NCBI GenBank assembly: GCA_014239355.1
Contig: JAAZYZ010000058.1
Coordinates: forward strand, 1-16,030
Origin: Fidelibacterota bacterium
Lineage (GTDB): Bacteria > Marinisomatota > Marinisomatia > SCGC-AAA003-L08 > TMED6
Direction of reading: 5' to 3'
Length of the DNA: 16,030 bases
The position numbers and the translations under genes are program-made. The notes under the pieces are model-generated. The model was not told where the DNA came from, ran no database searches, and saw only the letters and a program-made list of their open reading frames with translations. Of this stretch, positions 1,195 through 14,995 are shown piece after piece. Positions within the stretch are counted from its first letter, which is position 1; every line of letters starts with the position of its first letter.

Positions 1195-2140
1195 TTTCCT
1201 CCTCATTTTCAGCATAAGCTTTAATAATATTTTTAACTAAACTATGCCTTACGACATCAGATGAATCAAATTTCATATAACCAATTCCATCAATATTTTT
1301 TAATATATTGATAGCTTGAATTAATCCTGATAAATTTTTCTTTGGCAAATCAATTTGAGTTAAATCTCCTGTTATAATTGCTTTTGATGTAACTCCTAAT
1401 CTAGTTAAAAACATTTTCATCTGCATAGTTGTTGCATTTTGTGCTTCATCTAAAATAATAAATGCATTATGCAAAGTTCTACCTCTCATATATGCTAATG
1501 GAGCTATTTCAATTATACGATTATCAAGAAAAACTTTTAATTTTTCTTTTTCAATCATATCATTCAAAGCATCATATAATGGAGTTAAATATGGATCTAT
1601 TTTTTCTTTTAAATCTCCAGGTAAAAATCCTAAACTTTCACCTGCTTCAACGGCTGGCCTAGTAATAACAATTTTATTAACTATTTTATTTTTTAGCGCT
1701 GCCACTGCACAAGCCACTGCTTGATATGTTTTACCTGTTCCTGCAGGCCCAACAGCAAATGTGATATCGTAATTATTAACAGCATCTAAATATTTTTTTT
1801 GTCCATCTGTTTTGGCATAGACTACACCTTTATAGGTATGTAGAATAATCTTTTTATCAATAGAATCTTCAGATATTAATCCAGATTCAATTGTAGTATT
1901 TTGAATAAAGTTTAGAACATCATTTTCTTCTAACTGGCCTTTTATTTCTATTGTATTTAACATATTATTAAGTATTTTAGAAATTATCTCTAACTCATGC
2001 TTATCACCATCTAATTTTACTTTGTTTCCTCTGACAACAATACCTGCAGAAAAACTATTTTCTAATAATTTGATATTTTTATCATTTGGTCCCATAAATG
2101 ATAAAGGGTCTACTAAATGTATGTCAAAATTTTTTTTCAT
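1187..2140 (-). CDS. phoH: PhoH-family ATPase
   Basis: Cytosolic P-loop ATPase of the PhoH/YbeZ family, a group linked to RNA metabolism and to the endoribonuclease YbeY in many bacteria; the exact activity is unsettled. Visible motifs are Walker A GPAGTGKT (131-138), RPAVEAGESLGFLPGD (161-176), Walker B IILDEAQN (228-235) and the ITGDLTQIDLP block (256-266). The N-terminal ~115 residues match the usual PhoH leader, which often includes a nucleic-acid-binding-like part. The 317-residue length is normal. No Shine-Dalgarno is seen; the ATG follows a terminator-like hairpin by about 20 bases, so expression may depend on readthrough or a promoter in the 2141-2252 gap. ybeY is not in the window; the next gene is a thiolase instead. 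Confidence 0.93.
   Translation of the reverse strand: MKKNFDIHLVDPLSFMGPNDKNIKLLENSFSAGIVVRGNKVKLDGDKHELEIISKILNNMLNTIEIKGQLEENDVLNFIQNTTIESGLISEDSIDKKIILHTYKGVVYAKTDGQKKYLDAVNNYDITFAVGPAGTGKTYQAVACAVAALKNKIVNKIVITRPAVEAGESLGFLPGDLKEKIDPYLTPLYDALNDMIEKEKLKVFLDNRIIEIAPLAYMRGRTLHNAFIILDEAQNATTMQMKMFLTRLGVTSKAIITGDLTQIDLPKKNLSGLIQAINILKNIDGIGYMKFDSSDVVRHSLVKNIIKAYAENEEENE
1198..1203 (-). promoter_or_regulatory. Shine-Dalgarno site that sets the thiolase start
   Basis: AGGAGG lies 3 bases before the ATG at 1192-1194 and inside the end of phoH. It is the only full-strength Shine-Dalgarno motif I noticed in the window. It argues for the internal ATG over the one 7 codons upstream, because the longer reading would translate the ribosome-binding site itself. 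Confidence 0.7.
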
Positions 2141-2155
2141 AAATATTTAATAATT

Positions 2156-2191
2156 AAAAAAGCCCTTTATAGAAAAAAATCTAAAAAGGGC
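2156..2191 (-). terminator. Intrinsic terminator after aspS, before phoH
   Basis: A hairpin at 2162-2191 has a 7-bp GCCCTTT/AAAGGGC stem (2162-2168 with 2185-2191), an A-A mismatch, a further 4-bp TAGA/TCTA stem and a 6-base loop. On the minus strand it is followed by six T residues (2161-2156), so it is oriented to stop transcription coming from aspS. There is no T-run on the other side, so it is unidirectional. It lies only 15 bases before the phoH start codon, so it could instead be a leader attenuator for phoH. The rest of the gap (2192-2252) shows no gene; a weak TATAGA-like hexamer lies about 2210. Confidence 0.75.
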
Positions 2192-2252
2192 AAATTCATA
2201 TTTCTATAAAGCACTGAAATTTACGTAAAATTCTAATTAATTCAAACGTCAA

Positions 2253-4016
2253 CTAACTAGATTTTATATCTAATCCTAATTCATTTAATTGAGATTTATC
2301 AACATTGGAAGGAGAATTATCCATTAATGAAGTTGCAGATGTAGTTTTAGGAAAAGCTATTACATCTCTAATTTGATTAGAGCCAGCTAATAGCATTACA
2401 ATTCTATCAAATCCAAAAGCCATTCCTCCATGTGGTGGTGCTCCATATTTAAAAGCATCCATCAAAAAACCAAATTTTTCATTTGCCTCATCATCTGAGA
2501 TTCCAAGTATATCAAAAATATTCTTCTGAACTTCACTGCTATGTATTCTGATTGAACCACCACCTAATTCATAGCCATTCATTACTATATCATAAGCTAA
2601 TGATCTAACTTTTTCAGGATTAGAATTTAATAAATGTAAATCATCAGGATTCGGAGAAGTAAATGGATGATGTAATGAAAAATATCTATTTTCATCTTTT
2701 TCAAATAAAGGAAAATCTACAACCCATAACGGTGCCCACATATTTGAATCAATTAAGTCTTCCTTAACTCCTAATTTTAATCTTAAAGCTCCCATAGATT
2801 GAAGCGTCTTTTTCTTATTATCTCCAACCAAAAATACAATAGAATTATTTTTTATACTATTATCTTTAATAATTTGTGTCTGAATTTTATGGCTAAAAAA
2901 TTTACCTATGCCTCCATCAAATTCTTTCTGATTAACCTTAAACCACGCTAAACCTTTTACATCATAATATGTTTTTAATTCATCAGTCAATTCATCAATA
3001 ACTTTTCTAGAATAAGTATCAGCATTTGGACAAATAACAGCTTTAATAATTCCCCCTGAATCTATTACTGTTTTAAAAGTATTAAAATCAGACTCTAAAA
3101 TATATTTGTCAAAATCTAATAATTTCATATCAAAACGAATATCTGGCTTATCAGAACCATAATTATTCATAGCATCTTCATAGGTCATAATTGGAAACTC
3201 TTCATCTAATTTTACATCTAATATGTCATTCCATATATATCGGACTAAATCTGAACCCAATGAAATAATATCCTCTTGCTTTACAAAAGACATTTCAATG
3301 TCAATTTGAGTAAATTCTGGTTGACGATCAGATCTGAAGTCTTCATCTCTAAAACATTTAACAATTTGAAAGTACCTATCAAACCCTGAAACCATTAACA
3401 ATTGTTTATATGTTTGAGGGGACTGAGGTAATGCATAAAATTTTCCTTTGTGTAATCTACTTGGAACTAAAAAATCACGAGCTCCTTCAGGAGTAGATTT
3501 CATTAAAATTGGAGTTTCAATTTCAATAAATTTACTTTCAGATAAAAAATTTCTAGTTAAAATTGAAGTTTTATGACGAATCATTAAATTATTTTGAAGC
3601 TCTTTGGTTCTTAATTCAAGATATCTATATTTTAACCTATGGTCTTCCATAGCTGATTGCCTATCATTAATATCAAAAGGAGGTGTTAAAGATTTATTAT
3701 AAATCATAATATTTTTAACTTCAATATCGATTAATCCAGTAGGACTATTATCATTTCTAGCTTCATCTGGTCTTAATACTACTTTTCCTTCAATACCTAC
3801 GACATCTTCAAGACTCAATTTTTTAGCACTATTAAATGACTCTTTATCTATATCAATATTAAAAACTAATTGAGTTTTTCCGTATCTATCTCTTAAATCT
3901 GCAAATACAACACTTCCTAAATCACGTACTTTTGAAATCCATCCATTCAATACTACTGACTGATTTACAGAATCTTTACTTAAAACTCCACATGTATGTG
4001 TTCTAATCTTTATCAT
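2253..4016 (-). CDS. aspS: Aspartyl-tRNA synthetase
   Basis: Class II aminoacyl-tRNA synthetase that charges tRNA-Asp in the cytosol. Domains in order: N-terminal OB-fold anticodon-binding domain (about 1-105, with GWISKVRDLGS), catalytic core from about 140, motif 2 (about 221-243, CFRDEDFRSDRQPEFTQ), a bacterial-type GAD insertion (roughly 285-410), and motif 3 GGMAFGFDRIVMLL near the C-terminus. The 587 residues match the bacterial form (E. coli has 590). The Leu in RDLGS matches the E. coli-like tRNA-Asp-specific enzymes rather than the His of described non-discriminating ones, a weak hint only. The start codon lies inside the last codons of the upstream peroxiredoxin (14-base overlap) and has no Shine-Dalgarno, so translation is probably coupled to that gene. 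It ends with TAG before a terminator. Confidence 0.97.
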   Translation of the reverse strand: MIKIRTHTCGVLSKDSVNQSVVLNGWISKVRDLGSVVFADLRDRYGKTQLVFNIDIDKESFNSAKKLSLEDVVGIEGKVVLRPDEARNDNSPTGLIDIEVKNIMIYNKSLTPPFDINDRQSAMEDHRLKYRYLELRTKELQNNLMIRHKTSILTRNFLSESKFIEIETPILMKSTPEGARDFLVPSRLHKGKFYALPQSPQTYKQLLMVSGFDRYFQIVKCFRDEDFRSDRQPEFTQIDIEMSFVKQEDIISLGSDLVRYIWNDILDVKLDEEFPIMTYEDAMNNYGSDKPDIRFDMKLLDFDKYILESDFNTFKTVIDSGGIIKAVICPNADTYSRKVIDELTDELKTYYDVKGLAWFKVNQKEFDGGIGKFFSHKIQTQIIKDNSIKNNSIVFLVGDNKKKTLQSMGALRLKLGVKEDLIDSNMWAPLWVVDFPLFEKDENRYFSLHHPFTSPNPDDLHLLNSNPEKVRSLAYDIVMNGYELGGGSIRIHSSEVQKNIFDILGISDDEANEKFGFLMDAFKYGAPPHGGMAFGFDRIVMLLAGSNQIRDVIAFPKTTSATSLMDNSPSNVDKSQLNELGLDIKSS

Positions 4017-4563
4017 TTATTAAATTATTTTTCTCAAAAATTTGAATAATTTTATTAGCATAATTATCTAAGCTTATATTCTTAATTATATCAAAAACTA
4101 CACCATCTTTATTAATTAAAAAAGTAACTCTTTTAGGGAAAAAATAGGTGTCAACTCCATATAATTTTGATACAGAAGCATCTGAATCTGATAATAATGG
4201 AAATGAAAGATTATATCTATCAGAAAAATTTTTTTGTCTTTTTTGATTATCGTAACTTATACCAATAATCTCTATATTGTATTTATTATATTCTGAATAT
4301 TCATCGCGGAACCCGCAAGCCTGTTTAACTCAACCAGGGGTAAATGCTTTTGGAAAAAAATATATGACCAAATTCTTACCTTCATAATCAGATAAAGAAA
4401 TTAATTTACCATTTTGATTGAATAATTGAAATTCAGGAGCTTTAACGCCAATCTTCATATTATTAGAAGAAGAACTGGAAAATGATAATAATAGGAATAA
4501 AGAAATAATAATAGTAATAAAAAATAAAATATACATTTTAATATTAGCTCTTAATTTTTTCAT
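4003..4563 (-). CDS. bcp: Selenocysteine-containing Bcp-type peroxiredoxin (UGA at codon 78), membrane-anchored
   Basis: Thiol/selenol peroxidase of the Bcp (PrxQ) family, which reduces H2O2 and organic hydroperoxides with thioredoxin. The frame reads 77 codons, then UGA at 4330-4332, then 108 codons to TAG at 4003-4005: 186 residues if UGA is read as Sec. The UGA sits where Bcp has its peroxidatic Cys: YFFPKAFTPG-U-VKQACGFRD, against YFYPKAMTPG-C-TVQACGLRD in E. coli as I recall it. The resolving Cys is kept as C83, five residues on. After the UGA come IIGISYD, FPLLSDSDASVSKLYGV and RVTFLINKDG, all normal Bcp blocks without a frame shift. Residues 1-35 are an added N-terminus with a basic start, one hydrophobic helix (about 10-28) and a Ser-rich linker; the Bcp domain begins near M36, so the enzyme probably faces the periplasm. 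It starts 21 bases after the preceding gene and overlaps aspS by 14. Selenocysteine incorporation is inferred; the selenium machinery is not in the window. Confidence 0.88.
4304..4332 (-). promoter_or_regulatory. UGA-Sec codon with putative bacterial SECIS hairpin
   Basis: The recoded UGA is 4330-4332. Downstream in the mRNA a hairpin forms from 4318 to 4304: UUGCGG, loop GUU, CCGCGA. The pairs are four GC, one U-G wobble and one U-A. The loop begins with G and lies 17 bases after the UGA. Described bacterial SECIS elements have a short stem, a G in the first two loop positions and roughly 16-37 bases from UGA to loop, so the geometry fits. It is one of the most GC-rich short stretches in this window, in a place where synonymous AT-rich codons would be expected. 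Function is inferred from position and shape. Confidence 0.72.
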
Positions 4564-4584: not shown

Positions 4585-6348
4585 TTAGTCTATTTTAACT
4601 AAAATATAATCTTTAAAAAAGTAAGTTCTAAAATCTGTATTTGATATATTATAAATCCATAAATCATAGTCATCATCTTGTTTAATAGAATCAGGTTCCC
4701 CTAAAATAGATTCAATTTCATAAAAACTCATTCCAAGTGTGATATTATTAATTAAGGATTGTATTTTTTTTCTTCTACGCTCTTCTACATATTCTTTTAA
4801 ATTCAATTTTGTAATAGTACTATCATAATTTTTTAACTTTTGATCAATTTCAACTACATATTGATATAAACTGTCTGAATATTTAGGCTTCAAACTAATA
4901 ATTGTTTCTAAATATTCTTTAACTAGCTTTAACTCATTAGCATCAGTAGTATCATTTATATCATTTAAAATATATCTAATTAATTCTGTGTATTTATCAT
5001 TTATTTTGATGAATAAAGTTGGGTCTAATTCAAGTGCTTGTTGATAAAAATCAATAGCTTCTGAATAATTATTTAAGTTTTTTAAAATATCACCTTTTTT
5101 AAGAAAAATTTGAGCTTCAACTTTATCAGTTTCAGGCCACAAATATGGCGATATTTTACGAGCCTTATTTAAATTGTTAATTGAGCTAAAAAATGTATTT
5201 TTATCTAAATTTTTATTAGTTTTATTAATAAGTTGTTGAGCAATATCTCTTTTATAAGATTCAATCTCTAATATTAAGGCAGGATCTGCAGTTTGCTCAG
5301 CTTTATTAAAATTTTGTAATGCTTGATTATATAGGCTATCATTAAAAAATGTAATAGCCATTTCAAAATATTGATATGGAATCTGTGTATAACAAAAATT
5401 TAACATTTTTTTTGCTTTGTTAAATCTAAAGTTATAATTATAAATATTCAAAAATTGTTTGAATTTGTTTGCTGCATTAATATAATCTTTATCTAGCATT
5501 AATTGAAAAGCTTGATCACCTTTAGTATCTTTCCCTCCAAATAAAGTACCAAAAGTAAAAAATACACCTAATGTATTCATATCTAAGCCAATAATAGGAG
5601 TTTCATCCTTATCATCATATATTTTATTAATATAAGTTCTTCCTGCTCTTAGCTCTAAACCAATAGCATAATTATATGGTAAAGAAGATCTCTTTATTAC
5701 ATGCTTATAACCCATAGATAAATTTTCATTAAAACCAGAACCATAAATATACTTTTTTTGACTTAATGACTCATAAATTGATGCATAACTTAGACCAAAT
5801 GAATAATAACTATAAAAATAAAATTTTGATGAAAATTGACTTATAAAAGACAAATTTAAAAAACCATCAATAATAGAAGGTCGAAAACGATAACTTTCAT
5901 TGTTGTTAATATCATTAATATAAATGGGAGCTAATGGATTTGACAAAATATTTGAATACCTTAAACCAGTACCAATATGAAAATCAATTAAATTTTGATG
6001 ATATAATTTTTCTAAGAAATTATATTTCATTATATCTACTTCAATAAAATAACCTGTTCTTGAATCAATAGAAGAGACAAATGAATTATTAATATCTTGA
6101 TTATCTAATATAATGGGGTTTGAATCTAAATCAAAACTTCCCTGAATTGCATTTTGAAAGTAGTTAGGGCCACCATAACTAAATAATCCTATTTTTAATT
6201 CATAAGGAATTAAATAAAATGGCTCCCTAAATGTCATTTTCCTAAAATTATGATTTATAAAGTTATCAATTGGCGTACTTGACCAATTGCTTTGTGATGG
6301 AAAAGGAAAAGTGACTAGACATAAAACTATTAAAAAATATTTACTCAT
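4585..6348 (-). CDS. Secreted envelope protein: putative outer-membrane region, TPRs and BamE/SmpA-like C-terminus
   Basis: Protein of 587 residues with a clear signal peptide (1-20, hydrophobic LIVLCLVTFPF, likely cleavage near SQS-N). Residues about 40-270 are rich in alternating aromatic and polar residues, with repeated Gly/Tyr segments such as FYSYYSFGLSYAS, as in an outer-membrane beta-barrel. From about 285 to 510 there are helical repeats; the clearest TPR is near 424-443 (NYSEAIDFYQQALELDP). The last ~55 residues (LGMSFYEIESILGEPDSI, then DLWIY and a final aromatic strand) resemble the SmpA/OmlA (BamE) fold, which binds partners at the outer membrane. I do not recognise the whole protein. 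It is first in a minus-strand operon 21 bases ahead of the selenoprotein. No lipobox is visible. The domain calls are by eye; a barrel is the least certain part. Confidence 0.8.
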   Translation of the reverse strand: MSKYFLIVLCLVTFPFPSQSNWSSTPIDNFINHNFRKMTFREPFYLIPYELKIGLFSYGGPNYFQNAIQGSFDLDSNPIILDNQDINNSFVSSIDSRTGYFIEVDIMKYNFLEKLYHQNLIDFHIGTGLRYSNILSNPLAPIYINDINNNESYRFRPSIIDGFLNLSFISQFSSKFYFYSYYSFGLSYASIYESLSQKKYIYGSGFNENLSMGYKHVIKRSSLPYNYAIGLELRAGRTYINKIYDDKDETPIIGLDMNTLGVFFTFGTLFGGKDTKGDQAFQLMLDKDYINAANKFKQFLNIYNYNFRFNKAKKMLNFCYTQIPYQYFEMAITFFNDSLYNQALQNFNKAEQTADPALILEIESYKRDIAQQLINKTNKNLDKNTFFSSINNLNKARKISPYLWPETDKVEAQIFLKKGDILKNLNNYSEAIDFYQQALELDPTLFIKINDKYTELIRYILNDINDTTDANELKLVKEYLETIISLKPKYSDSLYQYVVEIDQKLKNYDSTITKLNLKEYVEERRRKKIQSLINNITLGMSFYEIESILGEPDSIKQDDDYDLWIYNISNTDFRTYFFKDYILVKID

Positions 6349-10100: not shown

Positions 10101-10516
10101 TTAAGAACCAATTAGAAAAATTAATGAAAGAAAATTCATTTTCATCTAGCGAAAATCAAGGAGAAGGTTTAGGCAAAGCATTAGAAAATATGGATAAAAT
10201 TATAAAAGATTTTGAAAATAATAATATTTCACAAGAAAGTATAAATAGAGGAGAACAGGTATATAGAAAATTATTAGAACATAAAAATTCATTAAGAAAT
10301 AGAGGCTTTAATGAAAACTGGGAAGCAGAACAAAATGATAATAATTTATTAGATAATAATTTAGATAAAATTGAAAACTCTAATAATATTGAATTAAAAA
10401 AATTATATAAAAAATTAGATGAATTAGATAATAATAAAAATATAACTAGAGAAAATAAAAGTATAATTCAAGAGTATTTACGAATATTAATTGAAGAGAA
10501 AATAAATGAAAAATAA
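7148..10516 (+). CDS. DUF4175-like inner-membrane protein with long coiled-coil domain
   Basis: Protein of 1122 residues. It has hydrophobic helices at about 22-41 and 55-72 and a third at about 150-170, then a periplasm-type region (about 170-510) of short beta segments with a PPIYTNI motif and the DDFGIKEA block around 425. From about 515 to the end it is almost entirely charged and Gln/Asn-rich coiled coil, with a Gly/Gln/Met-rich break near residue 965 (FGQQPGQQG). Size and layout match DUF4175-family proteins, which are often found with DUF4159 and MoxR/Bat-type genes in FCB bacteria. Probably a structural envelope component anchored in the inner membrane; no catalytic motif is seen. The stop overlaps the next gene by 11 bases. 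Sense-strand codon use is extremely A-rich, like its neighbours, so there is no sign of transfer. Confidence 0.82.
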   Translation: MESIQKFLKIYLNQKIKIYNINAIINFLIFGFSLLIIIIKIEESAYFSPYIKHRILTASLILSSLSILFLILRTLIHKYNLWENSNPQALAYQLIDKIPTKDRIINALQIYSKLDLNNSYSDLTINSINQLEDDIKKINLNKIKIYFPYRKFYTLIILLLVFISFILLSEQYYYSIDRLLKKEIKFNKPLPFKIMFENYKNEVFVFKDDKLTAVIKGEGITPEKIILNIKTNNKIDQVEINNINQSYSYTLKKIKNNTKIWASYINKSILPYKRYKIVTDTLNINLKTRPEFKDLKINIIPPIYTNITEVEHNQSLRTIQLLNGSNLKIEGILNKKIKDAKLKFNNDSIINMNVINNNINVECQIVEPLEFEIICTDFERNQNIPINYSIIINDDLKPYVNIKYPNDNLKINEKKNIKLEVEIVDDFGIKEAFLEYYILKPYYLDQDTTLNNIQIFNTSKNKKNQFISYNWDIKDLNIGPGDEIFYWVKALDNNTKTGPGIGKSKILKAYFPSLEELYFEVEEEQEIVEQNFGDMIDSIDDIKNMYKEISNDVLKEKTGFEQEQTTKKISTELEEISEKIKDLENTIKTIDELNDKNNLINDALGDKIQQLQNMFKDIISSELMEALQNIQQSLDDDDFKKSLEELNDFNFEINDLEQQVDRMIDLFEQIVAEQKLNELTKKLESMYDLQKEISEKINEDHRNKNIKPMENKQKNNLNDLENVFNQTSDIMKNIDQKISEEINQLSSSKEFSDTKKDINSILNSQNSKSNMNQNSNNIEKNLKKMSSELEKIIEEYQQKLTQEMLNMYSRIIKNLIDMSYGQEELIEIAKNVKSKKDNTNITELKSKENVLLQQYKNIFIQISDLTKKSFHISAETSKTFSQIFNHLIKTINAFEQGEIKNAKKNQIAAMEYINKTILLLIDAMENMQSSGEASGYSQYLESMENLMSGQQSLNQGMNSLIPMPFGQQPGQQGLMQSLMKQQQNLKNQLEKLMKENSFSSSENQGEGLGKALENMDKIIKDFENNNISQESINRGEQVYRKLLEHKNSLRNRGFNENWEAEQNDNNLLDNNLDKIENSNNIELKKLYKKLDELDNNKNITRENKSIIQEYLRILIEEKINEK

Positions 10517-12122
10517 TATTACTATAATACAGACTCTCATTATTTTTATAGTTATTGGATTTTGCAATACAATCGAAAATGAATACGAGGTGTGGAAAAG
10601 GGCTGAAATATTAAATCATCAAAAAAATAAAGATGAAGCATTGAAATTATACTTAGAAATTTTTCAAAAAAATAAAACTAATTATAAAGCTCTAACAAAA
10701 ATAAAAGAAATATTAATAGAAAAACAAAACTATACTCTTTTAATAGAATACTATAATCAGTATTTAAATAATAAATTAAATTTAAAACATCAATTTGAAG
10801 CAGAAGTAGAACTATTAGAAATAAAACTATGGATTCAAGATATACAATGGATTAATGATCTATATACATTAGAAAAAAAATATACTAATGATCAAAATAA
10901 AAAAAATAAATTTGAATTTATTTTGCATCAATTATTTAAAAATAAAAAAATAGAAGAAGGATATAATTTTGTCCTATATATAAGGGAAAAACATAATATG
11001 CCCTCCTTTTTTTCTAGAAAACTTATATCTATATTTAAAAAAAATAAAGAATATAAAAATTCAATAAATGAATCAATTATCTATTTAAATGAAACATCTA
11101 AAACTAATAAACAAAATAGTATCAGCCAGAAAATATTAATAGAACAAATATTTGATTTAATACAAAAATTACTTCTAGAAAGTAGATTGAATAAAACATA
11201 CTTACCTATAAGCTATAAACAATTATCATCTAATAAAATTTTAAATCTAAAACAAAATAATGAATATCAAATAGAAACTATAAATTATATAAATGATATT
11301 TATGAAAAATTAATCAAATATAATTTAGAACCGGAAATAGCAAAAATAAAATTAGCAGCTATACAATATAATATATTTAGTGATGTAGATAGTGCTTATA
11401 AAATATTGAACCAGCTTCAAGATAATTCATCTAAAATAGATATTAAAATTCAAACAATGCTAATGAAAAGTGATATTTTAATATCAAAAGGGTATTTAGA
11501 TTCTTCTATTAAATTAATTAATCAAAGTCAAAAAATTATTGATAAATATTATAAAAGAGATAAAAATTATGAAGCAAGGTTTAAAAATATAGAATTACTA
11601 CTTTATAAAGGAGATTATAGTAAAATGAATTTAGAAATTGATTCTTTAATATATGATTTTGAATTAGAGAATAAGGACTATAATGATTTACTAGAACTCA
11701 AAATGATTACACTATTTTTTAATAATGATATTGAACAATTTAAGAAATATGCCTCTATTCAGCATAAACTCAAAATGAATAAAAACTTTGAATCTATTTT
11801 AGAGTTAATTGATCTAATTAATTCAGATAATATTTTAATTTCAGAACTTTCTCAATTTCAATATGCATTAATTGAATTTCAAAAAGGAAATATTGATAAT
11901 ACTCAACAAATTATTGAAGATATGAAAACAAAAACAGTCTATTATGAAATTGCTTTGGTTTTAAATGCTGAAATAGAAGATTACATTAATCAAAACTATA
12001 AAAATGCCATTGAATTATATGAAAAAATTATTAAAATTTATCCAGATAGTATATATAAAGAAGATATTCTTAAACGATTAAATGAAATTTATAAAATAAT
12101 AGATAGTGAATTAGAATTATGA
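10506..12122 (+). CDS. Secreted TPR-repeat protein
   Basis: Protein of 538 residues with a basic, hydrophobic N-terminus (1-21, ending FIVIGFCNT) that looks like a signal peptide or anchor. The Cys there is preceded by Phe, so it is a poor lipobox. The rest is all helical with TPR-like units, clearest at the N-terminus (KNKDEALKLYLEIFQKNKTNYKALTKI, in pieces) and at the C-terminus (NYKNAIELYEKIIKIYPDS). TPR proteins are scaffolds that hold other proteins, so it may link the DUF4175-like protein to the other secreted products. It overlaps the upstream gene by 11 bases and its TGA overlaps the next start in an ATGA. The specific partner is unknown. Confidence 0.78.
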   Translation: MKNNITIIQTLIIFIVIGFCNTIENEYEVWKRAEILNHQKNKDEALKLYLEIFQKNKTNYKALTKIKEILIEKQNYTLLIEYYNQYLNNKLNLKHQFEAEVELLEIKLWIQDIQWINDLYTLEKKYTNDQNKKNKFEFILHQLFKNKKIEEGYNFVLYIREKHNMPSFFSRKLISIFKKNKEYKNSINESIIYLNETSKTNKQNSISQKILIEQIFDLIQKLLLESRLNKTYLPISYKQLSSNKILNLKQNNEYQIETINYINDIYEKLIKYNLEPEIAKIKLAAIQYNIFSDVDSAYKILNQLQDNSSKIDIKIQTMLMKSDILISKGYLDSSIKLINQSQKIIDKYYKRDKNYEARFKNIELLLYKGDYSKMNLEIDSLIYDFELENKDYNDLLELKMITLFFNNDIEQFKKYASIQHKLKMNKNFESILELIDLINSDNILISELSQFQYALIEFQKGNIDNTQQIIEDMKTKTVYYEIALVLNAEIEDYINQNYKNAIELYEKIIKIYPDSIYKEDILKRLNEIYKIIDSELEL

Positions 12123-13375
12123 TTAAAAAAAATATTTTCATAATATTTCTTCTCATAAATAGTATATTTTCAACACAAAAAATACTAATTCCAATGGATA
12201 AAAATCAAACAAACCATTTAAAGGCATATGGAATTGCATTCTCAAGTTTAGAAATGAATAATAAAGTAGATTGGTTATTAAATTATAGAGGAGGATCATT
12301 TGTGTTTGATGTTTCTAAACAGATTCAAAAAGAATGTTTATTAAAAAATGTATATTGTGAATTATTGTCAATTGAAGAAATTTCAATGATTTATTCTATG
12401 ATAGAACAAGAAAATATGGAATTAGTTATATTAGAAAAAACTCCAAAGATTGCTGTGTATTCACCTCCGAATCAACAACCTTGGGATGATGCTGTTACAT
12501 TAGCCTTAACATATGCAGATATAAAATATGATATTATATTTGATGAAGAAGTAATAAATGGTGACCTTTACAAATATGATTGGTTACATCTGCATCACGA
12601 AGATTTTACAGGGCAATATGGAAAATTTTATAGATATAGAAACCAACAATGGTATAAAGATATGGAAAATAGTTTTATTAAAACAGCTAACAAGTATGGT
12701 TTTGATAGTGTCCATAAATTTAAAAAATCTATTGCAATAAAAATAAGAGACTACATTAATAATGGAGGGTTTTTATTTGCTATGTGTTCTGCTACTGACT
12801 CCTTTGATATTGCTTTATCATATTACTCAATAGATTTTGCTCATTCTATATATGATGGAACACCAATTGAAGAAAAAAGTATAAATCAAGTTAATTATAA
12901 TAATGGTATCGCTTTTGAAAATTATGATTTGTATCTCGACCCTACTATTTATGAGTATTCAAATATAGATTTTCCATCTAGTCATCAACCAAACACTAGA
13001 AGTGCTGAATCAGACTATTTTACACTATCTAGTTTTTCCGCTAAATGGGACCCTGTTCCAACTATGCTTATTCAAAATCATGTTAGTAATATTAATGGTT
13101 TTATGGGGCAAACAACAGGCTATAATAAGAATTTTCTAAAATCACATATTCTAATACTTGGTGAAGATTTATATTCAGAACAAGTAAAATATATTCATGG
13201 TAATGTAGGTAAAGGTACATTTACTTTTTTAGGGGGTCACGATCCTGAAGATTATAGACATTTTGTTGGAGACCCACCAACTGATTTGGATTTACATAGA
13301 AACTCACCAGGATATAGATTAATTCTAAATAATATTTTATTTCCAGCTGCTAAAAAGAAAAAGAAAAAAACCTAA
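12119..13375 (+). CDS. Secreted 'asparagine synthetase B-like' protein of unknown function
   Basis: Protein of 418 residues with a signal peptide (about 1-19, ending SIFST). It resembles a Bacteroidetes/FCB family that databases often label 'asparagine synthetase B', although it is secreted and shows none of the AsnB synthetase motifs I would expect. Conserved-looking blocks are KILIPMDKNQTNHLKAYG (20-37), HLHHEDFTGQYGKF (157-170; H157, H159, H160, E161, D162), NGGFLFAMCSATDSFD (about 216-231, Cys223), and LGGHDPEDYRH near the end. Cys223 sits after a GGFL strand, like the nucleophile elbow of GATase1/ThuA-type folds, so it may be a hydrolase or a degenerate one. The C-terminus ends in six Lys and a Thr. 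Start overlaps the previous stop (ATGA). Function is unknown. Confidence 0.8.
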   Translation: MIKKNIFIIFLLINSIFSTQKILIPMDKNQTNHLKAYGIAFSSLEMNNKVDWLLNYRGGSFVFDVSKQIQKECLLKNVYCELLSIEEISMIYSMIEQENMELVILEKTPKIAVYSPPNQQPWDDAVTLALTYADIKYDIIFDEEVINGDLYKYDWLHLHHEDFTGQYGKFYRYRNQQWYKDMENSFIKTANKYGFDSVHKFKKSIAIKIRDYINNGGFLFAMCSATDSFDIALSYYSIDFAHSIYDGTPIEEKSINQVNYNNGIAFENYDLYLDPTIYEYSNIDFPSSHQPNTRSAESDYFTLSSFSAKWDPVPTMLIQNHVSNINGFMGQTTGYNKNFLKSHILILGEDLYSEQVKYIHGNVGKGTFTFLGGHDPEDYRHFVGDPPTDLDLHRNSPGYRLILNNILFPAAKKKKKKT

Positions 13376-14199
13376 AGTACAGGACCAGTATAGCTTTGTG
13401 CACTTTCATACCGTTTTAAACCAACTCTCCATAAAATACGTGTTGAATATAATAAAATTGATACTACTATAATTTGTGCCATAAAATATTTTTGATTCTG
13501 ATTAGTAAAACCATATAATAATAATCTAGCAGGTACTGAAGCTACCAAAGCCATAGGAAGAATTGTGAATAAGATTTTTCTAGTTAAGCCTTGATAAATA
13601 GTATCAGGTCTCATAGAAAACTTCATAACTTCATGAGTTAACCAACCTCCAGTTCTAAAATCTCTAAAATAGAAAGTTAAACATGAAGTTATAAATTCAA
13701 AACAGTACCAAATCAATGAGCCCATAAATAAAGAGCTTATAAATAAAAAAATATTTAAAAAATTAAGTGAATTTGGATGAAATATTATTAATATTTTATA
13801 TAAAATAATTGATAAAACTAATAAACTAACCAAAGTGTAGCTTCTAATATATCGAAATGAAATCAAAAATTGTGAATTAACTGGTCGCAATAAAATAAAA
13901 TCTAAACTTCCTGTTCTTATATGATCTCTTAGCTGTCCTGCCCCATCAAATAGCATCATAAAAATTGTATCAACAAAAAAAGTAGCAATTAAAAATACTA
14001 AAATAGCTTCTCTATCAAAATCTCCTAACATTGTTGTTTTTGAATAGATAACTTCAAAAAAATAATACCAAGTAATATAATATATTGTATCTACAAATAG
14101 ACTACCTATAAAATTAGTTTTATATTCCATATCACGAGATAAACTGTATTTAAATATGGAGAACCATAAATATATATATCTACGAACCATACGCTTCAT
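13372..14199 (-). CDS. ABC-2 transporter permease (second subunit)
   Basis: Integral membrane protein of 275 residues with about six transmembrane helices, of the ABC-2 permease group formerly called DUF990 (COG3694/COG4587 type). Diagnostic block: HIRTGSLDFILLRPVNSQF (about 93-111); the C-terminus ends with the family-like GLKRYES. It should pair with the permease just upstream to form the channel for the ATPase encoded first in the operon; substrates of this class are unclear. The start overlaps that permease by 20 bases. GAAGG lies directly before the first ATG (spacing 1) and 10 bases before a second ATG at codon 4, so either start is possible. Its TAG overlaps the TAA of the convergent 'asparagine synthetase B-like' gene by 4 bases, with no terminator between them. 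Confidence 0.9.
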   Translation of the reverse strand: MKRMVRRYIYLWFSIFKYSLSRDMEYKTNFIGSLFVDTIYYITWYYFFEVIYSKTTMLGDFDREAILVFLIATFFVDTIFMMLFDGAGQLRDHIRTGSLDFILLRPVNSQFLISFRYIRSYTLVSLLVLSIILYKILIIFHPNSLNFLNIFLFISSLFMGSLIWYCFEFITSCLTFYFRDFRTGGWLTHEVMKFSMRPDTIYQGLTRKILFTILPMALVASVPARLLLYGFTNQNQKYFMAQIIVVSILLYSTRILWRVGLKRYESAQSYTGPVL

Positions 14200-14995
14200 A
14201 CCTTCTTATACCAATACTATATACTAAACCACTTAATAATCTCATAATAACGCACCATAAGATTCCCATAAACATAAGGGTAACCCAATTATTTAAATCT
14301 GCATTCAATGACATTGCAATATCTACTGGGAACTTAATCAAATAAGGAATAGGAGTATAATTAATAAATTTAACATAATATTCAGGGAAAAAATCCAAAG
14401 GAATAATTTGACCTGCCAATACAAACATTGAAATATTATATGCAGCTAATAATGCTCTTACTTCACCAAACCAAAATGCAAAACAAACCATAAAAAAATA
14501 AATACTATAGGATAAATAAATTGATATTATAACAGCTAAGATAAAAAAAGGTACTTGAATAATATTAATAAATATTAAATCTTTAAAAATAATAGGAGCA
14601 CTTACAATTAATATAGTATAAGGAATATAGTACAAGATATTCGTACCAATAAAATTCATTAAATGATAACTAAAAAATGATATAGGTTTAACAATATATT
14701 GATTCATAAACCCCTGTCTTATCTGCATAATCATTTCATGCGATGTTACCCATGAAGATTTTAATTGCCCAATAATCATAGATAGAAAAATATAAGCAAT
14801 TAATCGATTAAATGTCCATCCATCAATAGTATAAGCTGAACCTTCAGATGTATATATCATGCTCAAAATTAAATATTCAATGAATAATCCTGTTAAAATA
14901 GCAAATAACCCTACTACACTATTAGCTTTGTATTCTAATGCTGTAATAATAGCAGCTCTTAATATTGAACTATATTTTTTAAACCAAGTAAACAT
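14180..14995 (-). CDS. ABC-2 transporter permease (first subunit)
   Basis: Integral membrane protein of 271 residues with about six transmembrane helices. It is a paralogue of the next permease: it carries the equivalent block IRQGFMNQYIVKPISFF (about 92-108) and ends GIRRYEAYG. This two-permease plus ATPase layout is typical of COG4586/COG4587/COG3694 systems, putative exporters of unknown substrate. Its start lies 5 bases after the ATPase stop, with a weak AGG five bases ahead, and its end overlaps the second permease by 20 bases, so all three are one operon. No substrate clue is visible in the sequence. Confidence 0.9.
   Translation of the reverse strand: MFTWFKKYSSILRAAIITALEYKANSVVGLFAILTGLFIEYLILSMIYTSEGSAYTIDGWTFNRLIAYIFLSMIIGQLKSSWVTSHEMIMQIRQGFMNQYIVKPISFFSYHLMNFIGTNILYYIPYTILIVSAPIIFKDLIFINIIQVPFFILAVIISIYLSYSIYFFMVCFAFWFGEVRALLAAYNISMFVLAGQIIPLDFFPEYYVKFINYTPIPYLIKFPVDIAMSLNADLNNWVTLMFMGILWCVIMRLLSGLVYSIGIRRYEAYGS

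Follow-up and report, generated by a model that had tools for sequence, protein, structure and literature searches.

The 16,030-nucleotide stretch of DNA analyzed here (hereafter the window) is, in our judgment, highly likely to encode a selenoprotein of the Bcp/PrxQ class, a probably membrane-anchored peroxiredoxin of a SAR406-like host in which UGA codon 78 is read as selenocysteine (Sec). The gene lies on the minus strand at 4563..4003, where a single Bcp-type peroxiredoxin frame of 186 codons comprises 77 codons, a TGA, 108 further codons and a TAG stop; its start was set at the ATG at 4563, the ATG at 4536 being possible too. The UGA (4330..4332, minus strand) takes the position of the peroxidatic Cys of the TPGC motif, both in the translation and in the alignment to relatives, and the motifs TPG-U-VKQACGFRD, FPLLSD and RVTFLINKDG are all read in the same frame. 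Five residues on, the TGC codon of Cys83 (4315..4317, minus strand), the putative resolving Cys of a U-x4-C arrangement, is invariant in alignment A1. The read-through protein matches PF00578 (AhpC-TSA) at 3.3e-37 with 127.6 bits, against a cut-off of 26. The plus strand at 4003..4563 was ruled out as coding, with many stops.

A sequence-only reading of this DNA had placed a UGA at the catalytic Cys, followed by 108 codons of family sequence up to a UAG; its coordinates are right and the translation of 4563..4003 agrees with it, the strand that it left unstated being minus. Despite the apparent split, the gene encodes one antioxidant enzyme, and the cell very probably decodes the UGA as Sec. 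The same reading had expected automatic annotation to call a 77-residue fragment and miss the rest. The database lists instead a 177-aa protein (P0002) with Trp at the UGA; the predicted 77-aa fragment was not what we found, and a protein of that size falls below the length needed for candidacy in our protein database search.

Relatives carry either UGA or Cys at the catalytic site

A profile scan of GTDB genomes yielded 406 confirmed relatives, the best 80 of which were retained, so that the counts below cover the window and 80 genome loci. Among these 81 sequences, the codon at the aligned site is TGA in 36, TGC in 29, TGT in 16, and TGG or any other codon in none. The proposed check, that Cys in homologues should align with the UGA, therefore turned out as expected, with a Cys codon in all 45 of the 45 non-UGA sequences. 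TPGC is present in 38 of these 45 Cys loci, and most have a Cys five residues on. Every one of the 36 TGA genes stays open for 99 to 115 codons past the UGA. When the search was extended across the phylum, some match was obtained in 196 of 199 genomes.

Selection on the two sides of the UGA was compared as pN/pS, with N-containing codons excluded. The six pairs formed by the window with the syntenic loci L001, L002 and L003 gave 0.25-0.37 before the UGA (40 codons) and 0.13-0.31 after it (100 codons), and eight further pairs gave 0-0.25 and 0.06-0.43, respectively, the top post-UGA value of 0.43 coming from the close pair L010/L025. Purifying selection after the UGA is thus about the same as before it. 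Decay of the downstream part in close homologues had been named as an observation that would speak against a selenoprotein; none was seen, given the 36 open frames out of 36 and the low post-UGA pN/pS. Together with the alignment of Cys and UGA, this undecayed downstream part supports the original proposal of a Sec-Bcp, as far as sequence comparison can.

We also noticed a second Sec-Bcp subfamily in the phylum, represented by L166, L167, L168, L169, L170, L173 and L174 (in G175, G160, G172, G021, G135, G216 and G208, respectively). In these 7 of the 10 stretches examined, TGA stands at the same site and Gln, Lys, Glu or Ile replaces the Cys five residues on. Since that resolving Cys is replaced, the second subfamily is probably a one-Sec enzyme without it.

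RNA-level constraint downstream of the UGA

We measured the synonymous G+C excess of each codon against the codon usage of its own locus, the rows of the alignment being related and not independent. At positions +5 to +8 past the UGA, which we take to be the expected place of a bacterial SECIS element, the codons of the TGA genes (n=36) have mean excesses of 0.55, 0.45, 0.78 and 0.86, against 0.06, 0.06, 0.08 and -0.07 in the Cys genes (n=45). The four TGA-gene values are the highest among about 130 positions (sd 0.16; the next, at codon -8, is 0.39). Together the four codons have an excess of 2.65 in TGA genes versus 0.13 in Cys genes; in the 12 Cys loci titled Neomarinimicrobiota this sum averages about 0.03. 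In the window these codons read TGC GGG TTC CGC (4306..4317, minus strand) within sequence of 25% GC (tail p 9e-6), and we regard them as the probable core of a bacterial SECIS within the coding sequence. Three TGA loci (L010, L025 and L031) are unexceptional here for their own locus, with tail p of 0.26-0.39.

Searches for the fold itself were less supportive. The folding energy of the UGA plus 42 nt relative to shuffles had a mean z of -0.18 in the 36 TGA genes and +0.21 in the 45 Cys genes, a marginal difference (one-sided p 0.033). RNAalifold returned no consensus pairs downstream of the UGA, and two hairpin registers had 84.3% and 66.9% of cells paired, which is the shuffle level, without covariation support. 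Rfam gave nothing at gathering on the window; for the 151 bases surrounding the UGA it returned a single weak and irrelevant lncRNA match (E 0.68). Because the codon excess is strong while fold, covariation and Rfam are unsupportive and some TGA loci are unexceptional, an RNA-level constraint at codons +5 to +8 is well supported, but an exact SECIS hairpin there is not.

The host lineage and its selenium machinery

The gene order around bcp is common to the window and L001, L002 and L003, which come from Neomarinimicrobiota SP108, bacterium TMED6 and Neomarinimicrobiota EAC25. Identity between the window and these loci is 68-82% for the DUF4159, 587-aa TPR, aspS, phoH and thiolase proteins, and 38-51% where covered for the coiled and second TPR proteins. 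From these comparisons we place the source bacterium near the Neomarinimicrobiota (SAR406) MAGs.

Selenium genes were searched for in the genomes of 48 relatives, namely 34 holding the 35 Sec loci and 14 with Cys loci (of the 45). Over the cut-off, selB was found in 28, selA in 27 and selD in 30 of the 34 Sec genomes, and ARAGORN called tRNA-SeC in 15; all four components were present in 10 of the 34 and none in one (G026). The 14 Cys-locus genomes had selB in 10, selA in 12, selD in 11 and tRNA-SeC in 12. We limited the tRNA-Sec counts to ARAGORN calls because RF01852 also matches ordinary tRNAs: 3 of 30 scanned matches were tRNA-Ser, at 48-50 bits. Across the 48 genomes, 40 of the 46 over-cut-off selD matches have one in-frame TGA each, wherever placed in the gene.

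Among the three syntenic genomes (G001 to G003), selB and selD were over the cut-off in all three, selA in two, and an ARAGORN-confirmed tRNA-Sec in one. G002 holds the complete set of selA, selB, selD and tRNA-Sec, and G001 and G003 hold partial sets. G001 and G002 each have selA, selB and a mutS-like gene (identified by eye) side by side; G003 has selB next to the mutS-like gene, and the contig ends in a fragment of selA. The contigs with selA-selB or selB in these genomes have 24-25% GC and the G002 tRNA-Sec contig has 25.7%. In G001 and G003, tRNA-Sec was not found by RF01852 plus ARAGORN or by further searches: a second RF01852 search of 20 genomes, whose new matches did not undergo an anticodon scan, showed no further tRNA-Sec, nor did a DNA search of six genomes with the G002 tRNA-Sec, which was run without a positive control. 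We tentatively read the missing tRNA-Sec genes as gaps in incomplete MAGs.

A separate observation concerns G028, where selB on contig C28 (about 1278-3094) appears split in two, shows an in-frame TGA and a TAG, and adjoins an intact-looking selA; this may be either a decayed gene or the product of assembly errors. Three SAR406 single-cell genomes are classed as orphan SelD in the accessible part of PMC5029168. The selA and selB genes found here suggest, with respect to that part of the paper, that its assemblies missed these genes or that the lineages differ.

Alternative readings of the UGA

The protein databases appear to store a Trp variant of Bcp, which raises the alternative that the organism reads UGA as tryptophan under code 4. 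Residues were scored on the best 120 of the 876 relatives retrieved, and these have TPGW in 93, PPGW in one, TPGC in 21, TPPC in three and TPNC in two; all of the top 73 (P0002-P0074) have Trp at the site and none has Cys. P0002, the window's own entry, shows Trp for a codon that is TGA in the DNA, and another five Trp proteins share 91-98% identity with six genome loci that have TGA at that place. The Trp in 94 of the 120 is very probably a UGA that gene callers misread under code 4. Speaking against genuine Trp decoding are also the codon counts above, with 36 TGA and no TGG, and the 11 other genes of the window, which use 40 TGG and reach full length without needing TGA. That these 11 genes contain no internal TGA follows from their having been called with TGA as a stop; the conserved aspS, phoH and thiolase genes are full length nonetheless. 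In addition, the window gene at 10506-12122 terminates at TGA as an ordinary stop, and four Sec-bcp genes (L004, L033, L052 and L057) use TGA as their own terminal stop. Finally, peroxidatic Cys chemistry is beyond Trp, which, as established for peroxiredoxins, cannot replace it. Taking these points together, we judge Trp decoding extremely unlikely.

Two other readings were weighed. A lone in-frame stop commonly marks a broken gene, and a pseudogene or a sequencing error would mean that the second half of the protein is no longer produced; yet the same TGA recurs in 35 loci of 34 genomes with intact downstream frames, and pN/pS is as low after the stop as before it, which leaves this reading a negligible chance. 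Somewhat less remote, though still very unlikely, is a programmed read-through of the UGA that inserts another amino acid, without Sec. The weakness of the SECIS by fold and covariation would fit such a read-through, as would the 19 of 34 Sec genomes in which no tRNA-Sec was found, but the UGA sits exactly at the catalytic Cys, most genomes with a Sec locus carry selA, selB and selD, and the synonymous constraint coincides with the bacterial SECIS position. Decoding as Sec remains by far our preferred reading.

History and taxonomic spread of the Sec-type gene

On a tree built with the codon masked, the distribution of Sec needs three changes, compared with a shuffled mean of 26.8 (0 of 500 shuffles as low). 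One fork of 38 rows (88/91, not starred) unites every one of the 36 Sec rows with two Cys rows, L007 and L051. L007 has the motif TPPC and comes from the same MAG as the Sec locus L006, while L051 is on a long branch. The simplest reading of this topology would be a single gain of Sec with one or two returns to Cys, and L007, nested in the Sec clade, is likely to be such a return. Alongside L007 we noted the database proteins P0075, P0078 and P0085, as a Cys paralogue with the TPPC motif.

The titles of the 35 Sec loci name Neomarinimicrobiota or Marinimicrobia in 30, "bacterium" only in four, and Chloroflexi in one (L010). L010 groups tightly with a Marinimicrobia locus, and its contig or MAG is probably misassigned. 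By tree and titles, the Sec-Bcp genes form what we take to be one large, mostly SAR406 clade.

Structure, predicted mechanism and known relatives

The AlphaFold model of the protein, computed from 51 rows with Cys in the Sec position, has a mean pLDDT of 92.6. Its best fold match is Sulfolobus Bcp1 (3drn; TM 0.73/0.89), which is also the best PDB sequence match; the 3drn chain has Ser at both active-site positions, probably as mutants, and the second match, 5enu, does carry Cys there. Like this Cys-type Bcp/PrxQ, most Cys loci have TPGC, but the window protein differs from the Cys type in having Sec as the predicted peroxidatic residue and in its N-terminal hydrophobic helix. With Cys replacing Sec, it scores 129.2 bits on NF006960 (thioredoxin-dependent thiol peroxidase), below the cut-off of 140. 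The N-terminal hydrophobic stretch (residues 10-28; 4480..4536, minus strand) is helical in the model and is probably a membrane anchor or signal; it suggests an anchor, which would place the enzyme outside the inner membrane.

We propose that SelB and Sec-tRNA would decode the UGA at codon 78 as Sec, aided by a short RNA element in the coding sequence just 3' of it. The selenol would then attack H2O2 or an organic hydroperoxide. Cys83 may resolve the selenenic acid in the manner of two-Cys Bcp, and the resulting bond would be reduced, probably outside the inner membrane, by a partner of the thioredoxin type. The selenium in the protein, the catalysis, the location and the reductant are all inferred.

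PrxU of Eubacterium acidaminophilum is an established Sec peroxiredoxin and shares with the window protein the Sec in a peroxiredoxin. The window protein scores 54.9 bits on the PrxU model NF040737, below its cut-off of 270, and the two are assigned by sequence to different peroxiredoxin subfamilies. Closer kin are the marine Prx selenoproteins with TxxU, 253 of which are described in the GOS set in the available part of PMC2398784; the accessible excerpts of PMC9312934 and PMC13188914 give the TxxU motif for COG1225 (Bcp) and the motif PxxxTxxU, respectively. As far as these partial texts go, this family (pfam00578/COG1225) has in common with the window protein the peroxiredoxin fold, PxxxTxxU (here P71, T75 and U78), a marine setting and Cys homologues, a comparison by description and not by alignment. 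The descriptions, to the same extent, come without a SAR406 placement; what is added here is the clade, the membrane helix and the position of the gene beside aspS. A literature search covering few subscription papers and preprints found no paper placing Sec-Bcp in SAR406/Neomarinimicrobiota.

Gene neighbourhood and overlap with aspS

Profile matches and synteny identify the downstream neighbour as aspS, encoding aspartyl-tRNA synthetase (2253..4016, minus strand), and the upstream neighbour, in the same orientation, as a gene for a 587-aa TPR protein (4585..6348, minus strand). The last 14 nt of bcp are also the first 14 nt of aspS (4003..4016, minus strand), and all four syntenic loci have such an overlap (11 nt in L001, 14 in L002 and 11 in L003); no obvious Shine-Dalgarno sequence precedes aspS in any of them. 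If aspS depended on ribosomes arriving through bcp, decoding of the UGA would therefore set the level of aspartyl-tRNA synthetase, selenium would gate an essential gene, and selenium supply would be linked to growth. Gene overlaps are common in small genomes without such meaning, and we consider this coupling improbable.

Elsewhere in the window, 12119-13375 encodes a 418-aa protein that matches nothing in Pfam or NCBIfam and has a terminal poly-lysine run; it adjoins the TPR, coiled and DUF4159 proteins. In another locus, L191, the stretch 13607-14375 combines an S16-like start (by eye) with a long Arg/Gln/Lys-rich repeat at its end, in a stretch with some N.

Implications

Sec-type Bcp was already known from the sea, and strong sequence evidence makes the window gene a well-supported new member of that family. 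The analysis links a considerable group of peroxiredoxin selenoproteins with TxxU to a single phylum, uncultured and mostly marine, that carries Sec machinery. In public protein sets many of these apparently have a false tryptophan as the catalytic residue, which hides their function. The UGA and Cys gene pairs within this one phylum offer a natural comparison of what Sec contributes to Bcp.
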